Assembly: GCF_024699925.1 (NCBI RefSeq)
Contig: NZ_JAJOMX010000001.1
Location: 744,001 to 808,000, forward strand
DNA length: 64,000 nt
Direction of reading: 5' to 3'
Origin: Mesorhizobium sp. J428
GTDB lineage: Bacteria > Pseudomonadota > Alphaproteobacteria > Rhizobiales > Rhizobiaceae
In this document: positions 24,892-62,996 of the stretch, piece after piece
Position numbering within the stretch: position 1 is the stretch's first letter
Layout of the letters: each line of letters opens with the position of its first letter
The notes under the pieces: model-generated
Seen by the model: the letters and a program-made list of their open reading frames with translations, nothing else
Told to the model about the DNA's origin: nothing
The model's database searches: none
Translations under genes and position numbers: made by a program

Positions 24892-25238
24892 CCCGATGCT
24901 GTCCGCACTGCGGTCTCTCAAGCCCCACGCTGCTCCCGTCGCTGACCTTGGATCACGACAGGAACACGATCACCCGTGGTCTAGTAACAGTTCGTCTAAA
25001 GCCAGCGGAGTTCCTGGTCTTCGTAGCATTGGTGTCTGCGTTCCCACGGCTTGCTCGCAGAGAACAGCTCCACTCCTCGCTGGTGGCTGCCCGGTCGGAG
25101 TGGGACGAGCCCGAGCCACGCATCATCGACGTCTATCTCGCTAGGATCAGACCCTCGCTCGGCCGTCTCAACCTGGGAGTCAGATCAACTCCCGGAATGG
25201 GCTGGGAGATAGTCGACCAATTGGGAGCCGCTCGATGA
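24888..25238 (+). CDS. Zinc-knuckle plus winged-helix DNA-binding protein
   Basis: 116 aa, GTG start overlapping the preceding stop. N-terminal CCPHCG knuckle, then an OmpR-type winged helix (ITRGLVTVRLKPAEFLVFVA, PRIIDVYLARIRPSL, GVRSTPGMGWEIVD). No receiver domain. Lies immediately before the transposase gene; probably a phage transcription factor. Confidence 0.7.
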   Translation: MTRCCPHCGLSSPTLLPSLTLDHDRNTITRGLVTVRLKPAEFLVFVALVSAFPRLARREQLHSSLVAARSEWDEPEPRIIDVYLARIRPSLGRLNLGVRSTPGMGWEIVDQLGAAR

Positions 25239-27452
25239 AGGAGTGGCTGACCCCAAGCGAGATCGCGGCCGAGGCGCTGCCGGACCTGCCGGCGACGAAG
25301 CGGGGTGTCCAGCTCTTCGCGGAACGCTACGGCTGGCTCGACCATCCCGCGCTGGCACGGCCACGCAAAGGACGCGAGGGTGGCGGCGGAACCGAATTCC
25401 ATATCCATCAGCTGCCGACGCTTGCCCGGATCGAATATTGCCGCCGGCATCAGATCGCCGGCGGCGATCCGGCCCCGTCCGAGCACATCACCATGTCCGT
25501 CGGCGCGACCAACGCTCGCGCGACACTCGAACGCGACGCCCGCCTTGCCATCATTCGCGCCTTCCGACGCCTGTCGGACGGGCTGGCGCTCACCCAGGTC
25601 AGCCGCCTGCAGATCTTCACGGACCGATATAACCAGGGGCTGATCGAGATCGAGGGATGGATCCTGAAAGCGGTCCCTGCGGTTTCAAAGCGCTCGCTGG
25701 CGCGGTGGCTTTCATCTGCTGCGAAGGGCAAGGCGCTCCAGCTCGGACACGACCCCGCCGCCGCCCCGCAAGGGAACCGGCGTGCTGCACACGGCCAACG
25801 GCGGCCGATTGCGTGATCACATCCTCGGCGTGCTTGTCGCGAAGCCGCACTTTACGGCCGACGAAGTCCGGACCGACTGCATCGCCGAGTTCGGAAAGGA
25901 GATCGTGCTGCGACACGGTGAGGTCGGCGCAATGCCGCCGCTTCGCACCTTCCAGCACTTTCTCAAGGCGCTGAAGGTCGAAGAGCAGGTGCCTCTCGCG
26001 CTCGTAACGAACCCGGACAAGCACCGCTCCCATTTCGCGCTGTCGGGGACCGACGCCTATTCATGGGTGAAGGATCCCAACCAGCTCTGGCAGGTCGATG
26101 CGTCTCCGGTCGACGTCATGTGCCTGGATGGCCGCCACTCGATCTATCTCTGCATCGATATTGCCACGCGGCGCGTCGTGATCACCACCTCGAAGACGCC
26201 GCGGGCCTCTGCCGTGAACCTGATGACGCGCAAGGCCCTGCTGGCCTGGGGTGCGCCTGTGGCGGTGAAGACCGACAATGGAACGGACTTCACTGCGATC
26301 GAGACAATCAGCCTGTTAGATGCGCTGAACATCGATGTCCAGCGATCCACCCGCTACTCGCCCCAGGAGAAGGGCCATGTCGAGCGGGCGATCAAGACGT
26401 TCCAATATGGATTCTGCACCAAACAGCCCGGCTATATCGGTCACGACGTCGAGGACCGGAAGGAGATCGAGGCCCGCAAGGCGTTTGCCGCCCGCCTCCA
26501 TTGCGACGACAAGGACGCCTTCTGCGTCGAGCTGACGGCGGCGGAACTGCAGGCGCGCATAGACCGGTGGGTGGTCGATTACGAAACCTCCGAGCATGAG
26601 TTCGTCGGCCTCGGCAAGGTCATACCCGCCCAGCTCGCCGCTGCTTCCGTCAAACCGATCCGCACCGTCGACGAACGCGCGCTCGACGTGCTGCTCATGC
26701 CCCTTGCCGGCGGCGGCGGCATCCGCACCATGTCCAAGAAGGGGCTGCGGATCGACCATCACTACTATCAGGCCCCCGAGATCCTGCCGCGCACCCAGGT
26801 GTTCGTCCGACTGGACCCCGGCGATGCCGGCATCGTTCGCGCCTATTCCCCCGACCGGCACGAGTTCCTGGCCGTGGCCGTCTGCTACAGCCTGGCCGGC
26901 GTCAATCCCGTCGAGCGGCTGAAGGAGGCGCGGGCAAAGCGCAAGGCGGTCGAAAGAAGCCGCATCGACCCGGCGATCGCGGCGACGCGTCATATCAAGC
27001 CTGGTGACTACTTCCCCCGCCACATGGCGGTAAAGGAGGCCGAGGCCGCCGAGCGCATGAAGGGGCTGGAGAACGTCGTTCCGCTGCCAAGACGGACGCA
27101 GGATCATTCGACGCCGCAGATCGCCGCCGCCATCGAGTCTTTCGATGCGCATTTGAAGGGGCCTCGAAGAGCGGTTTTCGACGATGCGGCAAAGATGCGC
27201 CACCAGCGATTGGTGGCCGAACTCTCGGGATCCGACGATCGCGCCGGCAACGTCACTCCGCTGCGTCGCGAAGAGGCGCCCGCTCAGCGCTTTGCCCGCA
27301 TGATCGAGATCGAGCGCCGGCGGGATGCTGGCGCGCCGCTCAGCGAAGACGAGGCGCATGAGCTCGGCAGCTACCAGCAGAGTTCAGAATACAAGTCCCG
27401 AAAGGCAATGCTGGAAGATTCCGGCGACCAGGCGCCAGTCTCGCGTTCCTGA
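25235..27452 (+). pseudogene. MuA-like DDE transposase, split by a 1-bp insertion
   Basis: Two frames together encode the protein. 25235-25816 gives the N-terminal DNA-binding part (MKEWLTPSEIAAEALPDLPA onward, SKRSLARWLSSAAKGKALQL). The second frame (25782-27452, its readable sequence beginning about 25767) carries the retroviral-integrase core with Asp106, Asp165 and Glu201 (LWQVDASP, VKTDNGTDF, KGHVERAIKTF; numbered from the GTG at 25782) and the Mu C-terminal domain. Removing one C from the C4 run at 25764-25767 restores one 738-aa reading frame with a smooth join, the length expected for this family. As written, the element should not transpose unless ribosomes shift frame. Confidence 0.85.
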
Positions 27453-37260: not shown

Positions 37261-37829
37261 GTTCGACCGATCTCTTTGGGAGTAATTCGGTGCGCCGCGA
37301 TGCGACCTTCGCGGATGCCGGCTCATGTCGTCTGACCCTCACCCGCGACTGGGGACCTGGGCGCACCGCCTGTATGATAGGCTGCAATCCTTCGCGTGCC
37401 GGTCGAGCTAGCGACGATCCGACTTCCTTGTGGTGGATGCGATGGGGGCAAGCGCTTGGTTTCGGCAGGTTCGTAGCCGTTAACCTTTACCCGTTCATCA
37501 GCAGCAGCCCGGCGGAATGTCGCACGCGGGCGGCTTGGCAAGAGAACGGCCCTGACTGGCTCGCTCGCGACCTGATGCAGGCAAATCTCGATGTCGTGGT
37601 GCGCGAAGCGAAATCGGCGGACATGGTGATTGCCTGCTGGGGCGCGATAGCTTGGGACTTGGAATGGGCCGAACATGTCATTGAAGCTATCCAGTTCGGG
37701 GATGAGCCATGGCCGGACCTCTATTGCTTTGGTCGAACCGCGGGCGGTGCACCCACGCATCCGATGGCGCGCGGCAAGCATAGGCTTCCGCGCGACGTTG
37801 AGCCAAAGCTCTGGCGGGCGGCGCGATGA
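37257..37829 (+). CDS. DUF1643 protein inserted between terminase subunits
   Basis: 190 aa, GTG start overlapping the small-terminase stop. RLTLTRDWGPGRTACMIGCNPSRAGRASDDPTSLWWMRW (residues about 25-63) and VIACWGAIAW are DUF1643 signatures. The family occurs in phages and near defence genes and has no firmly assigned activity. Its stop overlaps the large terminase start, so it is a tightly coupled cargo gene. Confidence 0.85.
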   Translation: MSSTDLFGSNSVRRDATFADAGSCRLTLTRDWGPGRTACMIGCNPSRAGRASDDPTSLWWMRWGQALGFGRFVAVNLYPFISSSPAECRTRAAWQENGPDWLARDLMQANLDVVVREAKSADMVIACWGAIAWDLEWAEHVIEAIQFGDEPWPDLYCFGRTAGGAPTHPMARGKHRLPRDVEPKLWRAAR

Positions 37830-39523
37830 CCGCACCGATCAGTCAGGCCGACTGGGCGCAGCTCCGCCGGGAGTCGATCGAGATCATGCCGGAGCTGGCC
37901 GACAAGCTCGGCCTGCCGAATGTGCTACTGCGCTACCAGGGCGACACGGTTGCCGAGCTGGAAAGCGGCACGGCCCTCCTGGTGATCGAGAAGAGCCGAC
38001 GCGTCGGCCTCACTTGGGGGCTCGCCTCCTATGCCGTGCTGCGCGCCGCCAGGGCGCGCTCGGCCGGCGGCATGGACGCGATGTATATCTCCTACTCCCA
38101 GGAGATGACCCGCGAGTTCATCGACGCCTGCGCCATGTGGGCGCGCGCCTATGCGATCGCCGCCGCCGACGTCCAGGAGTTCATCTTCGACGACACGGAT
38201 CCGCGCACACCGGACGAGACGCGTCAGATCAAGGCGTTCCGGATCCAGTTCGCGTCGGGCTTCGAGATCCTCGCACTGTCATCGGCGCCGCGGTCGCTGC
38301 GCGGCAAGCAGGGCCTGGTCATCATCGACGAGGCGGCCTTCGTCGACAGTTTGAAGGAACTGCTGAAGGCCGCACTCGCCTTTCTCATGTGGGGCGGCCA
38401 GGTCGTCGTCTGCTCGACCCATAACGGTTCCGAGAACGAGTTCAACGTGCTCGTCCAGGACATTCTCGGCGGGCGGCGCAAGGGCAAGCACAAACGCATC
38501 GACTTCGACCAGGCGCTGCAGGATGGGCTGTTCGAGCGCATCTGCCTCGTCACCGGCAAGGAATGGTCGGCGGAGGCCGAGGCGGCCTGGCGCCAGGATA
38601 TCATCGACTTTTATGCCGACGGCGCTGACGAGGAGCTGTTCTGCATCCCGTCGATGGGCTCCGGCGCCTGGCTCACCGCTCCGCTGATCGAAGCGCGCAT
38701 GACGCTCGACCCGGAAGAGGCACCGATCCTGCGCGTCGCGCTTCCCGCCGATTATCTGCAGCGCCCCGAGGTCGATCGGCGGCACCTCCTGGCGGCACAG
38801 ATTGACGGTCTCGACGATGCGCTGAAGCTGCTTAGCCCGAAGCACATTCATGCGTTCGGCTACGACCCGGCGCGGATGAACGATCCGGCTGTCATCACGC
38901 TGCTTGCGGTCGACGGCCTCCTCAGGCGTCGCACGGCCCTCACGGTCGAGTTCAGAAACGTGCCGTTCGATGAGCAGAAGGCCATCGCCAGGCAGATCAT
39001 CAGGGCTACCCCACGCCTCGTCGGTGCGGCCGTGGACGCGACCGGGATGGGCATGAACCTTGCCGAGGATCTCGGGCGCGAGTTCGGCTTCTACATTCCG
39101 AACGACGATCCCACGAAGGTCGTCTACGGCCTGGTGTGGCAGGTGAAGCTCTCGACTGGCTGGTACAACGAGCACATGCCCCCGGTGAAGGTCGCGTTCG
39201 AGGATGGCGCGATCGCGCTTACGAAGGACGTCGAACATCTCGCCGACCTGCGGCTGGTGAAGGTGATCCGAGGCGTGCCGACGATCCCGGAGGAGCGGGT
39301 CGCCGTCGCGGGAAAGAAGCGCCACGGCGACTTCGCGGTCGCCCTGGTGCTCGCCTACGCCGCCAGCCGCCTGCAGTGGCACGAATACGGCTACACGCCG
39401 GTCGGCCGGCCCCGAACGAAATACGACGAGGCGGACGCCGCGACTGGCGACATGCGCATGACGGCCGATGAGAAGCCGCGGCCATTCCGCATGGCAAGCC
39501 TGCGGCGGGGCGGAGCATGGTGA
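37826..39523 (+). CDS. Large terminase subunit (Mu gp28-like)
   Basis: 565 aa packaging ATPase-nuclease. Walker A-like VIEKSRRVGLTWG at residues 53-65, Walker B QGLVIIDEAAF at 162-172, coupling motif VVVCSTHNGSENEF, and a C-terminal RNase H-like nuclease with FGYDPARMNDPAVITLLAVD and AVDATGMGMNLAE as candidate acidic sites. Packages DNA into preformed heads; Mu-type phages cut a headful with host DNA at the right end. Confidence 0.93.
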   Translation: MTAPISQADWAQLRRESIEIMPELADKLGLPNVLLRYQGDTVAELESGTALLVIEKSRRVGLTWGLASYAVLRAARARSAGGMDAMYISYSQEMTREFIDACAMWARAYAIAAADVQEFIFDDTDPRTPDETRQIKAFRIQFASGFEILALSSAPRSLRGKQGLVIIDEAAFVDSLKELLKAALAFLMWGGQVVVCSTHNGSENEFNVLVQDILGGRRKGKHKRIDFDQALQDGLFERICLVTGKEWSAEAEAAWRQDIIDFYADGADEELFCIPSMGSGAWLTAPLIEARMTLDPEEAPILRVALPADYLQRPEVDRRHLLAAQIDGLDDALKLLSPKHIHAFGYDPARMNDPAVITLLAVDGLLRRRTALTVEFRNVPFDEQKAIARQIIRATPRLVGAAVDATGMGMNLAEDLGREFGFYIPNDDPTKVVYGLVWQVKLSTGWYNEHMPPVKVAFEDGAIALTKDVEHLADLRLVKVIRGVPTIPEERVAVAGKKRHGDFAVALVLAYAASRLQWHEYGYTPVGRPRTKYDEADAATGDMRMTADEKPRPFRMASLRRGGAW

Positions 39524-39535
39524 TGGAGAACCGAC

Positions 39536-41110
39536 ATGGCTGAGAAGCGCGTGCAGCTGCTCGACGCGTTCGGGCGGCCAATCAACCTTCAGGCGCTGAA
39601 GGAAGAACAGGCTGCCCCGACGATGGGCAGCGTGCGTCGCCATGATGCGATGCATCCGGCAGCCGGCCTCACCCCGGGCCGCCTTGCGTCGATCCTGCGC
39701 GAATCGATCGAGAACAATCCGGAAGCCTACCTCGCGCTCGCCGAGGACATGGAGGAGCGCGATCTGCACTATGCCAGCGTGCTGTCGACCCGCAAGCTCC
39801 AGGTCGCTGGGCTGGAGATCACGGTCGAGGCCGCTGGCGAAGACGCCGAGTCGGTGAAACATGCCGACCTGGTGCGCGAGTTCATCGAGCGTGACGCCTT
39901 TGAAATCGAGCTGCGCGACATCCTGGACGCGGTCGGCAAGGGCTTCTCGGCCACCGAGATCTGCTGGGACAGTTCGGAAGGCGACCACAGGATCCGCGCC
40001 CTGAAGTGGCGCGATCCGCGCTGGTTCGAGTTCGACCGGGTCGACGGCGAGACGCTCCGGCTGCGCGACAACGCCGGCCCGGTCGAGCTGACCCCGTTCG
40101 GCTGGGTCATTCACCACGCAAAGGCCAAGTCGGGCCTGCCGATCCGCGGCGGCCTGGCGCGCGGCGCAGCGTGGGCCTTCCTGTTCAAGTCCTTCACGAT
40201 CAAGGATTGGGCGATCTTCGTCGAAGCCTACGGCCAGCCGCTGCGCCTGGGCAAATACGACGCCGGGGCAACCAACGAGGACAAGGACAAACTGCTTGAT
40301 GCGGTGACCTCGATCGGCACCGATTATGCGGCCATCGTGCCGAACGGCATGGCGATCGAATTCATCGAAGCAAACCTGAGCGGCAGCCACGAACTCTACG
40401 AGAAACGGGCGGACTGGCTGGACCGCCAGATCTCCAAGCTCGTGCTCGGCCAGACGGCGACGACGGATGCGATCAAGGGCGGCTACGCCGTTGGCAAGAC
40501 TCATGACGGGGTGCGCGCCGATCTTGAGCGCGCCGACGCGAAGCAGCTCGCCGGCACGCTCAACCGCGATATCTCGGTCCCGCTCGTCGCGCTCAATTTC
40601 GGGCTACAGAAGAAGTATCCGCGGATCAAGATCGGCCGCCCGGAAGAGATCGACGTCGACAAGCTCGTGGCCAACGTCGAGAGGCTGGTGCCGTTGGGCC
40701 TCGAAGTGGGCATGGCCACGATGCGCGACAAGCTTGGCCTTCCGGATCCGGCCGCTGGCGAAAAGCTGCTCCAGGTGCGACGCCCGGACGTGCCGGCGGC
40801 GGGTGTCGGTCCTGACGGAAAGCCGCTGCCGCAGGCTCCCCCACCGCAGCAGTCGCTGCAGCAGGAAATGTCGCCCACCGACGCGATCGACACCGCCGTT
40901 GCCGGGACCATCGACGATTGGGAGCCGCTGGTCGGTCCGATCGTGGCAGGCCTCGCCGGCAGGATCGCAGCGGCCGGCTCTCTCGACGAGGTCAAGCAGA
41001 TCCTCGCCGAGCGCTTTCGCGACATGGATCTCTCCGCGCTCACCGAGCAGCTCGCCCGGGCGGCGTTTGCGGCGCGCCTGGCCGGTGAGGCCGACGAAGA
41101 TCTCGCATGA
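39536..41110 (+). CDS. Portal protein (Mu gp29-like, DUF935)
   Basis: 524 aa. ATEICWDSSEGDHRI, LKWRDPRWFEFD, WVIHHAKAKSGLPIRGGLAR and LVLGQTATTDAIKGGYAVGK are the DUF935 landmarks. Forms the dodecameric portal ring for DNA entry and tail attachment. The C-terminus overlaps the gpF-like gene by 4 bp. Confidence 0.93.
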   Translation: MAEKRVQLLDAFGRPINLQALKEEQAAPTMGSVRRHDAMHPAAGLTPGRLASILRESIENNPEAYLALAEDMEERDLHYASVLSTRKLQVAGLEITVEAAGEDAESVKHADLVREFIERDAFEIELRDILDAVGKGFSATEICWDSSEGDHRIRALKWRDPRWFEFDRVDGETLRLRDNAGPVELTPFGWVIHHAKAKSGLPIRGGLARGAAWAFLFKSFTIKDWAIFVEAYGQPLRLGKYDAGATNEDKDKLLDAVTSIGTDYAAIVPNGMAIEFIEANLSGSHELYEKRADWLDRQISKLVLGQTATTDAIKGGYAVGKTHDGVRADLERADAKQLAGTLNRDISVPLVALNFGLQKKYPRIKIGRPEEIDVDKLVANVERLVPLGLEVGMATMRDKLGLPDPAAGEKLLQVRRPDVPAAGVGPDGKPLPQAPPPQQSLQQEMSPTDAIDTAVAGTIDDWEPLVGPIVAGLAGRIAAAGSLDEVKQILAERFRDMDLSALTEQLARAAFAARLAGEADEDLA

Positions 41111-42468
41111 CGATCACGCTCGACCCGCTGCCGCCGCGAGAGGCAATCGCCGCCCTGGCGCGTCGTGGGGCGCGGCTCGAAGAAAGCTTCGCCTGGCAGG
41201 ACGTCTGGCAGGAGACGCATGGCGAGATGTTCACGGTCGCGAAGTCGGCCGGTTTCGACATTCTGAGCGACATCTATGCCGCCCTGCAGAAGGCGCTGGC
41301 CGAGGGAAAGACCTTTCGCGATTTTGCCGAGGAGCTCACCCCCGTGCTTCAGGCAAAGGGATGGTGGGGGCGAAAGGCGACGTTCGACCCGCTGACCGGG
41401 GAGCCGGTGATGGCGCAGCTCGGCAGTGTGCGCCGGCTGCAGACGATCTTCGACACGAACATGCGCGTGTCGTATGCGGCCGGGCATTGGGCGAGCTTCG
41501 AGCGCAACAAGGCATCCCGCCCGTTCCTCCGCTATGTCGCCATCCTCGACGAGCGGACGCGGCCGGCCCATGCCGCCCGGCATAATCTCGTCCTGCCCAT
41601 CGACCATCCCTATTGGAACACCTGGGCGCCGCCTTGCGGCTGGAATTGCCGTTGCACCCTGCAGAGCCTCAGCCAGCGCGACGTCGACCGCATGGTGGCC
41701 GAGGGCGTCCCGCTGAAGTTCGAGCCCCCCGAGGATACATTCCGCGACTATGTGAACAGGCGCACCGGCGAGGTGAGCCGCGTGCCGGACGGCATCGATC
41801 CGGGCTGGGCCTACAATCCGGGAAAGACCGGTCATGCGCCTGCGCTCGCCCAGGCGGAGGCGAAGATGGCGCGAGGGCTATTCGGCGAACTGCCGCGCAT
41901 GTGGCCGCCGCCGCCCGGAACTCAAGCCGAGCTCGATAAGCTCGCGACGCGTCTGTCCGAGGCACAGGCCGATTGGGAGGACACGCTCACGCCGCACGAG
42001 GTCGAGGCGATAGCCTACTACAAGGGAACAGGCGCGCGCCCGATGAACGCGATGCTACGCGGTGATGAGGCCACGCTGGAAGAATATGAGGAAGAGGACC
42101 TCGATATCGCTCGCGCGCTCGCCGACGACCTGGATGAGGCGATCGGCCGGGCAACTCTCCCCGCTAACGTGCGCACCTGGCGCGGGGTGCCGGATAGTGT
42201 CGCCGAAGGCTTTCGCGGGCTGAAGCCGGGAGACACGCTCCGGGACGACGGCTTCTTCTCGTCTTCACTGAATCAGCGTGTCGCGGAATCGTTCGGCGAC
42301 TTCGTGATCGAAGTGCGTGTGCCGGAAGGTGCGCCAGCGATCGCGTTCGTGCATTTCATTCCGGACGTCAATCATGTAGAATACGAGGTGCTGGTGGCGC
42401 CGGGCGTCGAGATGACGGTCGTCGAGGTTCGCCCCGAAGGGCTGGTTGTAGAGGTGAAGCGAAAGTGA
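41107..42468 (+). CDS. gpF-like head morphogenesis protein fused to an ADP-ribosyltransferase domain
   Basis: 453 aa. Residues 1-230 form the Mu gp30/SPP1 gp7 minor head domain: LQTIFDTNMRVSYAAGHWAS, then ERTRPAHAARHNLVLPIDHP and CGWNCRC. Residues about 295-453 match an ADP-ribosyltransferase exoenzyme: AIAYYKGTGARPMNAMLRG, VRTWRGVP with Arg359, DDGFFSSSL with Ser385-387, and NHVEYEVLVAPG with Glu425-Tyr-Glu427. The full R-STS-ExE signature is present, so it may be active. Packaged with the head, it could be ejected into the host to modify a target. Confidence 0.88.
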   Translation: MTITLDPLPPREAIAALARRGARLEESFAWQDVWQETHGEMFTVAKSAGFDILSDIYAALQKALAEGKTFRDFAEELTPVLQAKGWWGRKATFDPLTGEPVMAQLGSVRRLQTIFDTNMRVSYAAGHWASFERNKASRPFLRYVAILDERTRPAHAARHNLVLPIDHPYWNTWAPPCGWNCRCTLQSLSQRDVDRMVAEGVPLKFEPPEDTFRDYVNRRTGEVSRVPDGIDPGWAYNPGKTGHAPALAQAEAKMARGLFGELPRMWPPPPGTQAELDKLATRLSEAQADWEDTLTPHEVEAIAYYKGTGARPMNAMLRGDEATLEEYEEEDLDIARALADDLDEAIGRATLPANVRTWRGVPDSVAEGFRGLKPGDTLRDDGFFSSSLNQRVAESFGDFVIEVRVPEGAPAIAFVHFIPDVNHVEYEVLVAPGVEMTVVEVRPEGLVVEVKRK

Positions 42469-42680
42469 GCGTGGACAGGAACATGTTGGAAGCGGATCTC
42501 GCCGGGCTCGTCCCGAGCGGGCGCGCTCGCGACACATACCTGCGCCTGGGTGACGATCGCCTTGCCGCCGCCATCGCTAGACTGCGCCGCGACGAGGCTC
42601 GCTTGCGCCGCGACGGCCATATTGCAAGCACAGGCTTTGGCCTCCAGCTCGTCTCCGAGCAGGATCGCTCAGGAGCGTGA
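42465..42680 (+). CDS. Small protein coupled to the ADP-ribosyltransferase fusion gene
   Basis: 71 aa, GTG start overlapping the stop of the fusion gene. Acidic N-terminus then Arg-rich helix (DDRLAAAIARLRRDEARLRR). No family recognised. Its coupling to the toxin-like domain allows an accessory or immunity role, which is only a guess. Confidence 0.6.
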   Translation: MSVDRNMLEADLAGLVPSGRARDTYLRLGDDRLAAAIARLRRDEARLRRDGHIASTGFGLQLVSEQDRSGA

Positions 42681-42739
42681 GTGCCCCTTGGATGGTCCCT
42701 GAGGCCGTCCAGAACCTTCAATACGCCTCCTACCCCGTT

Positions 42740-42753
42740 TAAAACCGGTTTTA
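42740..42753. repeat. Palindrome TAAAACCGGTTTTA in a 267-bp gap
   Basis: Perfect 14-bp palindrome in the noncoding spacer (42681-42947) before the protease gene; the spacer also holds GC-rich hairpins such as GGCCGAATTCGGCC. May be a regulator site for the head genes. Confidence 0.35.
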
Positions 42754-42947
42754 CGGCGGTGTTTTCGTCCGACCGGGGAGACATCTTTTGAGTTTTGGCA
42801 GATTGACCTCCGATCGGGTCTCGTGACAGCCTGATCGTGGCGCAGGTCGCGCCGGCCTGCGCCGGCGTCCCTTAGCCAGAACGACTGGCACTGGATGGCC
42901 GAATTCGGCCACCCGACTGACACGCCCGCCGCTGGCTAGATGCGGCG

Positions 42948-44045
42948 ATGTTTCGTCCCTCAACCTTCACTTCGCTGCACGCCGCCGCCGATACAGCCGG
43001 CCTGGCGCTGTGCGCGGCGTTCCCGCTGCCCGCCTTCGAGGATGACAAGATCCCGGAGTGGATCAATCTGCTTCCCGCCGGCGCGATCATCACGACGGTG
43101 GACGGACGCGGTCCCTACAAGGTCCCGAGCGCGCCCGAGGTGGTTCGCGCCAGCCTGCAGCAGGCGGCCGGACCGATGGTCCTCGACGAGAACCACGCGA
43201 CGGACATTGCCGCCGCCAGGGGAGAGTCGGCACCGGCGCGGGGCTGGATCGTCGAGCTCGACGCTCGGTCGGACGGCATCTGGGGCAAGGTCGAATGGAC
43301 GAGGTCCGGCCTCGAACTGATGGCGGAGAAGGCCTACCGCTACATCTCCCCGGTCATCACACACACGAAGGACGGCACCGTCCTCGAGATCCGGCGCGCG
43401 TCGCTGGTCAACAAGCCCAATCTGCGCGGCATGGCTGCGCTTCACCAGGAGAACACCATGGACCTGCTTACCAAGCTCCTCGCCGCGCTCGGCCTTCCGG
43501 CGGCCACGACGGAAGAAGCTGTGATCGCCGCCGTCACGACGATGCATGCCCAGCAGGCCGCGTCGTCGACTGCGCTCCAGGCCGCTCTCTCGCCGATCGC
43601 CAAGGCAGTCGGCCTCCCGGAAACATCTGACGCGGCGGCGGTGCTGGCCGGCGTCGAGGCGGTGAAGGGCGGCGACCAGGAGGTCACCGCGCTGCAGGCG
43701 GAACTGACCCGTGTCGCGACCGAGCTGAAGTCCCTGCAGGAGGGCGGCAAGAAGAAGGCTGCCGAGCTCTTCGTCGACCAGGCGATCAAGGCCGGCCATG
43801 TCGGCGTGAAGCCGTCGCGCGAGCGCTTCATCGCGCTCCACATGGCCGATCCGGTCGAGACCGAGAAGATGATCAACGCCATGCCGACGCTCGGCGTCGG
43901 AGGGCAGGTGGTCCCCAACACGCCGCCCGCAGCCAATGGCGAGATCTCGCTCAATGCCGAGCAGATTGCCGTCGCAAAGGCGCTCGGGGTCGACCCCAAG
44001 GCCTACGCCGATACGCTGAAGAGAGAGCGCGAAGCCGCGCTCTGA
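42948..44045 (+). CDS. Phage protease/scaffold (Mu protein I-like)
   Basis: 365 aa. N-terminal protease part with EWINLLPAGAIITTVDGRGPY, LDENHATDIAAARGESAPARG and YRYISPVITH, matching Mu gp32. The C-terminal third is helical scaffold-like (VTALQAELTRVATELKSLQE). Such proteins process themselves and the scaffold during prohead maturation. An internal start produces the scaffold part separately (next entry). Confidence 0.9.
   Translation: MFRPSTFTSLHAAADTAGLALCAAFPLPAFEDDKIPEWINLLPAGAIITTVDGRGPYKVPSAPEVVRASLQQAAGPMVLDENHATDIAAARGESAPARGWIVELDARSDGIWGKVEWTRSGLELMAEKAYRYISPVITHTKDGTVLEIRRASLVNKPNLRGMAALHQENTMDLLTKLLAALGLPAATTEEAVIAAVTTMHAQQAASSTALQAALSPIAKAVGLPETSDAAAVLAGVEAVKGGDQEVTALQAELTRVATELKSLQEGGKKKAAELFVDQAIKAGHVGVKPSRERFIALHMADPVETEKMINAMPTLGVGGQVVPNTPPAANGEISLNAEQIAVAKALGVDPKAYADTLKREREAAL
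43458..44045 (+). CDS. Nested in-frame scaffold protein (Mu gpZ-like)
   Basis: 195 aa from ATG 43458 (codon 171 of the protease gene), preceded by AGGAGAACACC, a better ribosome site than many phage genes here have. Mu makes its scaffold Z from an internal start in gene I in the same way. Content is helical and Ala-rich (MDLLTKLLAALGLPAATTEE). Confidence 0.65.
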   Translation: MDLLTKLLAALGLPAATTEEAVIAAVTTMHAQQAASSTALQAALSPIAKAVGLPETSDAAAVLAGVEAVKGGDQEVTALQAELTRVATELKSLQEGGKKKAAELFVDQAIKAGHVGVKPSRERFIALHMADPVETEKMINAMPTLGVGGQVVPNTPPAANGEISLNAEQIAVAKALGVDPKAYADTLKREREAAL

Positions 44046-44557: not shown

Positions 44558-45451
44558 ATGCTCATCAATAGCGCCAATCTCGACCATCTTCGGATCGGCT
44601 TCACGACGGCCTTCCAGGCTGGCCTGTCGCAGGCTCCGAGCCAGCACAAGCGCATCACCACCACATTCCGTTCGACGACCGCCATGAACGACTATGGCTG
44701 GCTCGGTGACCTGCCCGGGATGCGCGAATGGACCGGACCGCGTGTGATCCACAGCCTCAAGCAGTACAACTACCGGGTCGAGAACAAGTCCTGGGAAGAG
44801 ACGATCGGCGTCAACCGCGATCATATCGAGGACGACAATCTTGGCATCTATGCACCGCGCTTCACGGCGATGGGCCAGGCGGTCGGCTCCAGCTTCGATA
44901 CGCTGTCCTTCGCCCTGCTGAAGGCCGGCTTTGCCACCGCCTGCTATGACGGCCAGTATTTCTTCGATACCGATCATCCGGTGCTGGACGAGAATGGTGC
45001 GCCTCAGTCCGTGGCCAATACGGACGGCGGCGCGGGCACGCCCTGGTTCCTGATCGACTCGAAGAAGCCGATCAACCCGGTGATCCTGCAGATCCGCAAG
45101 GACGCGCAGTTTGTCACAAAGGACGATCCCCGCGACGACCGCGTATTCATGAACAAGGAGTTCCTCTACGGCGCGGATGGCCGCTGGAACGTCGGCTTCA
45201 GCTTCTGGCAGTGGAGCTGGGGGTCGAAGCAGACGCTGAACGCCGCTAACTACGCGATCGCCCGTGCCGCGCTCGCCGGAATGAAGGGCGATTATGGCCG
45301 GCCGATCGGCGTGACGCCCGACCTCCTCATCGTGCCGCCGTCGCTGGAAAGCGCCGCGCGCAAGCTGCTCAATTCCGAAAATGCCGCCGGCGGCGAGACC
45401 AACGAGTGGAAGGGCACGGCCGAGCTGCTCGTGGTGCCCTGGCTCGCCTAA
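44558..45451 (+). CDS. Major head protein (Mu gpT-like)
   Basis: 297 aa. HLRIGFTTAFQAGLSQAPSQ, NDYGWLGDLPGMREWTGPRV, ENKSWEETIGVNRDHIEDDN and YFFDTDHPVLDENG are landmarks of Mu gpT-type HK97-fold capsid proteins. CAGGAATCCGCCACC precedes the ATG. Forms the icosahedral shell. Confidence 0.94.
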   Translation: MLINSANLDHLRIGFTTAFQAGLSQAPSQHKRITTTFRSTTAMNDYGWLGDLPGMREWTGPRVIHSLKQYNYRVENKSWEETIGVNRDHIEDDNLGIYAPRFTAMGQAVGSSFDTLSFALLKAGFATACYDGQYFFDTDHPVLDENGAPQSVANTDGGAGTPWFLIDSKKPINPVILQIRKDAQFVTKDDPRDDRVFMNKEFLYGADGRWNVGFSFWQWSWGSKQTLNAANYAIARAALAGMKGDYGRPIGVTPDLLIVPPSLESAARKLLNSENAAGGETNEWKGTAELLVVPWLA

Positions 45452-62184: not shown

Positions 62185-62996
62185 ATGCCCGTTGAAAGCG
62201 AATTCACACCTGTTTCATCGACACACCCGCCGGCGCCTTATATCGGCGGCAAACGCAGGCTCGCGGCCGAGCTGGTGCGCCGCATCGCGGCGGTGCCCCA
62301 TCGGACGTACGCGGAGCCGTTCGTCGGAATGGGAGGCGTCTTCTTCCGCCGCGATCGCAGGCCGCCGGCCGAGGTGATCAATGACCGCAACGGCGAAGTG
62401 GCAAACCTTTTCCGAATCCTGCAGCGCCACTATCCGCAATTCATCGAGACTCTGCGCTTCCAGATCTCCGGGCGGAAGGAATTCGAGCGGCTGAAGGCCT
62501 CGGACCCGTCCACGCTGACCGATCTCGAGCGCGCCGGCCGATTCCTCTATCTCCAGCGGACAGCCTTTGGCGGCAAGGTGGCCGGGCAGAATTTCGGCGT
62601 CGATCCTTATGCCGGCGGCGGCTTCAACCTCACCCGGCTGGTACGGTACTCGAGGGCGTTCACGAGCGGCTCGCCGGCGTCGTGATCGAGTGCCTGGACT
62701 GGCAGGGGTTCATCCGCCGCTATGATCGGCCTGGCACGCTCTTCTACCTAGATCCGCCCTATTGGGGCTCGGAGGGCGACTATGGGAAGACGCTTTTCGA
62801 CCGGTCGCAGTTCGCGCTCCTGGCCGAGGTGCTGCGCGGGATCAAGGGGCGGTTCATCCTGTCGATCAACGACCGGCCGGAGGTGCGGGAGGTATTCGCG
62901 GGCTTCGAGGCCGACGGCGCGGAACTGCTTTACTCGGTGTCGGAAGGCAAGCCGGTCGAGGCGAAGGAACTGATCATCAGCGGGCCTGCGCAATGA
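62185..62996 (+). pseudogene. D12-class adenine DNA methyltransferase, frameshifted by a 1-bp deletion
   Basis: The first frame (62185-62685) has the SAM motif PPAPYIGGKRRLAAEL and AEPFVGMGGVFFRR; the second (62682-62996) has YLDPPYWG, the DPPY catalytic motif, and INDRPEVREVF. The first frame loses sense at about 62644 (RLVRYSRAFTSG); adding one C there gives RLVPVLEGVHERLAGVVIEC and a 270-aa Dam-type enzyme. Either a real null or a base-call error. Dam-like methylation usually protects phage DNA. Confidence 0.85.

Follow-up and report, generated by a model that had tools for sequence, protein, structure and literature searches.

We analyzed a window of 64,000 nucleotides (the whole stretch of DNA, positions 744,001 to 808,000 of contig NZ_JAJOMX010000001.1) from Mesorhizobium sp. 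J428, and in particular one prophage gene, encoding a gpF-type (MuF) minor head protein that ends in an ADP-ribosyltransferase (ART) domain, together with the overlapping gene of a 71-aa protein. The closest described systems are the MuF polymorphic toxins. Of 191 such toxins, 14% were putative ARTs; the MuF toxins came mainly from Firmicutes, and in Proteobacteria the tails mostly lacked known domains (Jamet et al. 2017, PMC5576092). The injection of MuF proteins with the virion has already been proposed in print (PMC5576092, PMC9503650).

Bxa, encoded by a prophage of Bacteroides stercoris, acts by modifying arginines, and Bsi blocks it (PMC11699363). Compared by layout and not by sequence, the locus of strain J428 resembles this pair in having a MuF head protein, a C-terminal ART, and a small neighboring gene; Bxa, however, extends farther (to residue 869), and a gene of a hydrolase, BAH, lies next to it (PMC11699363). 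The sole match to the ADP-ribosylhydrolase family (PF03747) in the genome of strain J428 was on another contig. Apk2, a MuF toxin making (p)ppApp and accompanied by IapK and Aph1, is similar in that a small immunity protein blocking the active site is encoded just downstream, but Apk2 is not an ART (PMC12226406). Alt of phage T4 and the polyvalent effectors are likewise comparable, as head-packaged phage ARTs and as effectors, including PBECR, that are joined to a gpF or portal domain (PMC5512222, PMC9503650). Unlike Alt, our protein matched the Alt family of PHROGs (phrog_802) at an E-value of 0.7 only (residues 288–360); this match was not significant, and a T4 Alt-type identity, i.e., an ART of RNA polymerase, was rejected on this basis.

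As in the described MuF toxins (PMC5576092), the PF04233 part is encoded right after the portal gene, the toxin domain is C-terminal, a small open reading frame (ORF) follows downstream, and the locus belongs to a prophage. A MuF N-terminus, a C-terminus of a known toxin family, a varying tail, and a downstream ORF of less than 150 aa (71 aa) were all found. Because the gpF-ART protein and its partner fit the MuF polymorphic toxins and are laid out like Bxa and Bsi, they represent a known kind. Unlike the toxins of PMC5576092, they lie in a Mu-like prophage, have a readable relative from Hyphomicrobiales, and possess a nucleotide-level record of cassette exchange as well as a partner family of their own. 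MuF toxins including ARTs, their small downstream genes, prophages, and the idea of injection are already in print (PMC5576092, PMC5512222, PMC9503650), and so is a MuF-ART that is encoded by a prophage and blocked by an immunity protein (PMC11699363). Judged by titles and the openings of abstracts, none of the papers found in the open literature on MuF with phage, ART, and immunity, or on MuF with Alphaproteobacteria, ADP-ribosyl, and prophage, describes this subfamily. What is new is the unusually clean boundary of the cassette, the undescribed partner family, and the fact that ART-tailed gpF proteins do not form one clade.

The gpF-ART protein and the overlapping gene

The following features were assigned to the locus:
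41107..41823, plus strand: constant gpF (MuF) part, residues 1–239 (PF04233; phrog_220; common to relatives)
41791..41823, plus strand: GIDPGWAYNPG motif, residues 229–239, the point after which relatives diverge (comparison of relatives)
41824..42465, plus strand: C-terminal tail, residues 240–453, with the predicted ART domain at 285–443 (PF03496; profile match to solved ARTs)
42181..42387, plus strand: stretch with the catalytic residues R359, S385/S387, and E425/E427 (alignment)
42465..42680, plus strand: gene of the putative 71-aa partner, GTG start, 4-bp overlap with the ART stop (ORF; homologues)
41827..42650, right end approximate, plus strand: segment exchanged relative to phage contig L002, comprising the ART tail and nearly all of the 71-aa gene (DNA comparison)

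The gpF-ART protein (ORF 41107–42468, ATG start, 453 aa) is encoded directly downstream of the portal gene (39536–41110) by a single-copy gene of the genome. The Pfam domains Phage_Mu_F (PF04233, residues 56–185, E 2.8e-21) and ADPrib_exo_Tox (PF03496, residues 285–443, E 1.1e-14, 54.7 bits with a cut-off of 23.4) were both found above their cut-offs, and in PHROGs the protein matched phrog_220, "minor head protein and DNA pilot" (E 8e-83). With all catalytic residues present, these matches bear out the original prediction of a gpF head protein carrying an intact C-terminal ART; R359, FFSSS (S385–S387), and E425-Y426-E427 lie exactly where it had placed them. The small gene said to overlap the stop codon is also there: ORF 42465–42680, with a GTG start, encodes 71 aa and shares 4 bp with the gpF-ART gene.

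R359, S385, S387, E425, and E427 were invariant in all nine aligned proteins (that of the window and eight ART-tailed relatives), the mean column identity being 55%. In each of the nine, Arg, S-x-S, and E-x-E follow in this order within the ART domain, as in the R-S-E class. A profile of seven ART tails matched solved ARTs along most of the length of the domain: the best match was Lmo0066 (8za7, E 6e-12), the second Vis (4xzj, E 4e-11), and then came the A chains of binary toxins and Vip2. A search of the literature for Lmo0066 together with ADP-ribosyl found nothing. Judged by its sequence, the tail belongs to the ExE-type ARTs of the R-S-E class. The ExE motif goes with arginine as the acceptor of ADP-ribose, and NAD-dependent transfer to arginine is predicted for the tail from its E-x-E. 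As to the suggested targets (RNA polymerase, the ribosome, or a defense factor), nothing among our results points to any of them. PADLOC gave no matches for either the 453-aa or the 71-aa protein of the window.

Exchange of the tail with its small gene

A scan of virus contigs revealed 53 loci encoding relatives of the gpF-ART protein; only one matched up to residue 450, and the rest ended by residue 299. The idea that the ART tail is common in known phages was rejected: tblastn with residues 254–453 gave no matches in 50,697 phage records (E 1e-3), and none of the 322 phage records matching the whole 453-aa protein covered 80% of it.

We aligned gpF proteins from 54 of the 65 loci L001–L065, omitting seven copies or near-copies and four truncated or misread loci. 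The gpF domain was found in all 54 proteins scanned (the window's own included), while the remainder of the protein varied: PBECR2 was identified in 16, PBECR3 in 4, ART (PF03496) in 3, LPD3 in 1, and, weakly, LPD13 in 1, these counts overlapping since some proteins match two domain types. Eleven of the 54 were short (<270 aa). At the DNA level, similarity extended past position 41650 in 24 loci; in 14 of them, two of which are the same locus, it ended at 41817–41835, i.e., at the end of the GIDPGWAYNPG motif, and in the other 10 it faded earlier (41655–41691). L052, L066, and L067 also represent a single locus.

The clearest record was provided by phage contig L002, which was 94% identical to the window in DNA over positions 37827–41826 and unrelated thereafter. 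Its tail gave a weak GNAT match alone (E 0.03, below the cut-off) and is followed by a different 68-aa ORF with the same 4-bp overlap. Similarity resumes at about 42650, inside the final codons of the 71-aa gene, and a second time from 43052, past a gene of a KAP-like NTPase. By these boundaries, the exchanged piece, as read from the DNA, comprises the ART tail together with almost the whole 71-aa gene. The sequence comparison thus shows that a tail with its overlapping small gene is exchanged as a cassette between phages.

A tree was also built for the gpF part. After removal of 6 identical copies, of 4 loci that were truncated or misread, and of 10 whose matched part was less than 43% identical, it had 51 rows, and L002 was the sister of the window. 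The eight ART-tailed gpF proteins of this subfamily did not form one clade (approximately unbiased test, p = 2.8e-7); mosaicism inside the gpF part could add to this result.

Some further observations concern these loci. The KAP-like NTPase of L002 (5734–7473, minus strand; best PADLOC match PDC-S20, E 1e-78) is encoded in the interval that separates the tail cassette from the protease gene. Both cassettes are followed (at 42725–42770 in the window and 5720–5755 in L002) by a conserved stretch around CCGTTTAAAACCG with no assigned ORF, which could be a recombination or regulatory site. In L036 (3989–5722), the gpF protein has two effector domains in tandem, PBECR2 being followed by an ART that belongs to another subfamily.

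The 71-aa family and the proposed role of the pair

The 71-aa protein of the window matched no family of Pfam, PHROGs, or NCBIfam at E 1, its gene had no matches in phage and plasmid records, and the best match of the family to solved structures had an E-value of 0.21. Homologues were nevertheless found. A full-length gpF-ART relative is encoded in Breoghania corrubedonensis (Stappiaceae, Hyphomicrobiales), and in this Breoghania prophage (L066) a homologue of the 71-aa protein (41% identity over the alignment, phmmer E 5.5e-8) overlaps the end of the ART gene; since this homologue stands at the same position in a related prophage, a chance origin of the 71-aa ORF was rejected. Protein P0009 was 95% identical to the 71-aa protein and P0002 was an 88%-identical ART protein; both are encoded on contigs of 153,776 bp, and we assumed their genes to be neighbors. 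P0010, P0012, and P0013 are further members. On a 15.9-kb contig of a genome of the same family as Breoghania (G584/L071), where no gpF was found, there is a remnant of the last ~35 ART residues that has lost the ExE motif and is abutted by an insertion element, which we take to be of the IS3 type; it is followed, with the same overlap, by an intact 65-aa homologue.

In a comparison covering the ORFs of 69 loci as well as those of the window, members of the 71-aa family stood exclusively beside this ART subfamily. None was found at the 62 gpF loci that lack an ART tail, a set that includes copies and truncated loci, a few of which end so soon after gpF that a partner could be missed. A 66-aa overlapping ORF in L036 looked low in complexity and was not counted as a partner. 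Matches to the 71-aa protein at E 9.3e-4 to 0.0098 (7 of the 10 genomes with a match in one scan and 5 of the 6 in another) were treated as chance, as were the ART matches of L069 and L072 (E ~7e-4).

The structure predicted for the 71-aa protein from four sequences had a mean pLDDT (predicted local distance difference test) of 77, with helices at residues 5–15, 19–26, and 30–50 and values below 50 at residues 55–71. Seven of the 20 columns invariant in the four proteins fall at residues 51–59, GHIxSTGxG; when two remoter members were added, L8, G51, and G57 alone stayed invariant. On the sequence evidence, the family of the 71-aa protein is small and previously undescribed. The protein had been proposed to be either a regulator or an immunity factor. 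Of these, the comparisons favor an immunity factor over a regulator, because the gene forms one exchange unit with the ART tail, has homologues beside an ART (L066) and an ART remnant (L071), and is absent from the 62 ART-less gpF loci.

The explanation that we favor, and consider probable by analogy with Bxa/Bsi and Apk2/IapK, is that of a MuF-family polymorphic toxin in a Mu-like prophage, in which the head-borne ART would act in newly entered cells and the 71-aa protein would neutralize it in the producer. Proteins of the gpF/gp7 type sit in the head near the portal. The constant gpF part, which in the sequence is joined to the ART just after the GIDPGWxYNPG motif, would accordingly be built into the head at this site, and the ART would travel with the particle; its injection is plausible. 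Inside the producer, the 71-aa protein, presumably made by translational coupling, may bind the ART, perhaps via the conserved GHIxSTGxG end, and hold it in check, so that the cell would keep working until lysis. In a new cell lacking the partner, the ART would mono-ADP-ribosylate protein arginines, and this modification might slow competitors or shift the host to the advantage of the phage. A bolder version, which we regard as rather unlikely, is that the 71-aa family is a new ART-neutralizing class plugging the enzyme with its GHIxSTGxG end, and that chromosomal copies without the ART (the G711 orphan described below; G584, beside an ART remnant) confer resistance to phages injecting this ART. 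This end is conserved, and its predicted structure ranges from low-confidence to disordered.

Several observations weigh against the neutralization scheme. No known immunity protein family of Pfam significantly matched the 71-aa family (four members); the weak matches, of one member each, were to DUF2866 (E 0.017, the best) and Imm32 (E 0.15). An intact homologue in G711 is an orphan, as the 14.7 kb read there contained neither an ART nor a gpF, and the 71-aa gene is therefore not strictly tied to the ART, although orphans are usual among immunity genes. The ART tail of L036, of another subfamily and behind PBECR2, has no gene of the 71-aa family. The ART label was clustered on the gpF tree beyond chance (6 changes vs. 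a shuffled mean of 8.5; as low in 4/500), so the exchange of tails is not free. The split transposase described below means that the prophage may be dead or unable to transpose, unless the assembly is wrong there. Finally, a scan of 41000–43200 for sigma-70 consensus sites, the only promoter type covered, gave no promoter-like sites (0.2 expected). The 71-aa protein is therefore expected to be made with the late genes, protecting the producing cell, and its protection of quiet lysogens is doubtful. One terminator-like site was found in the same region (1.2 expected).

The strongest competitor, possible but clearly less probable than neutralization, is a head-delivered takeover ART that acts in every infection, like T4 Alt, with the 71-aa protein as a folding, packaging, or activity partner instead of an antidote. 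Phage ARTs often occur in head contexts, and MuF fusions have been interpreted as enzymes that are injected and modify the host (PMC9503650); an overlap of 4 bp and a joint exchange would suit any obligate partner. However, an intact partner homologue standing alone (G711) and another beside a broken ART would be odd for a chaperone, the differently tailed L002 has its own unrelated small gene, and the match to the Alt family was negligible. A toxin of lysogenic conversion, directed against eukaryotes or against further organisms that the host encounters and with the 71-aa protein protecting the producer, is improbable: Bxa does act on epithelial cells as well as bacteria (PMC11699363), and the nearest solved ARTs include enzymes with eukaryotic targets, but the gene lies among late head genes, and the sister phage L002 has a different tail at the same place. 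It is very improbable that the tail is inert, merely extending the head protein as a degenerate or structural piece next to a functionally unrelated small gene. Two split prophage genes do indicate decay under way, but the five catalytic residues are kept in 9/9 proteins at a mean column identity of 55%, and the reading frames are open throughout.

The locus places a putative MuF toxin, whose ART can be identified and which has a partner gene of its own, in a Mu-like prophage. It also displays closely what such phages exchange, namely the tail and its small gene, from just after a fixed gpF motif; their joint exchange supports the small genes as cognate partners. The ~210-aa ART tail and the 71-aa protein make a compact pair for direct testing, and the orphan partner genes offer a test of whether hosts capture such genes against injected toxins.

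The prophage

The neighboring genes that define the setting are as follows:
37826..39523, plus strand: terminase large subunit (PF03237; phrog_2)
39536..41110, plus strand: Mu-type portal gene (PF06074, E 3e-105)
42948..44045, plus strand: Mu-like I protease gene (PF10123, E 1e-50)
44558..45451, plus strand: major head protein gene (phrog_371, E 1e-118)

The gene order is thus terminase, portal, gpF, protease, and major head protein. Among the more distant genes of the prophage, part of which were scanned, a transposase, a DNA transposition protein, a connector, a tape measure protein, and tail genes were identified. By its gene content, the locus is a Mu-like transposable prophage; the genes scanned suggest that it probably has a siphophage tail.

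The Mu-type transposase is encoded by two overlapping ORFs in different frames (25235–25816 and 25782–27452), while in all three relatives compared (the records behind L002, L004, and L066) it occupies one open frame of 734–814 codons. The protein of the second ORF was 46% identical to that of the L002 record, in contrast to the 94% DNA identity of the head genes (37827–41826), which indicates strong mosaicism between modules. A suhB/mmgR RNA was also present in the window; like the full-length relative in Breoghania, it points to a host that is probably alphaproteobacterial. The DNA methyltransferase (phrog_56) is likewise split over two overlapping ORFs (62185–62685 and 62682–62996); phage contig L004 contains DNA 73% identical to positions 62239–62979 of the window, located ~190 bp downstream of the L004 gpF gene.

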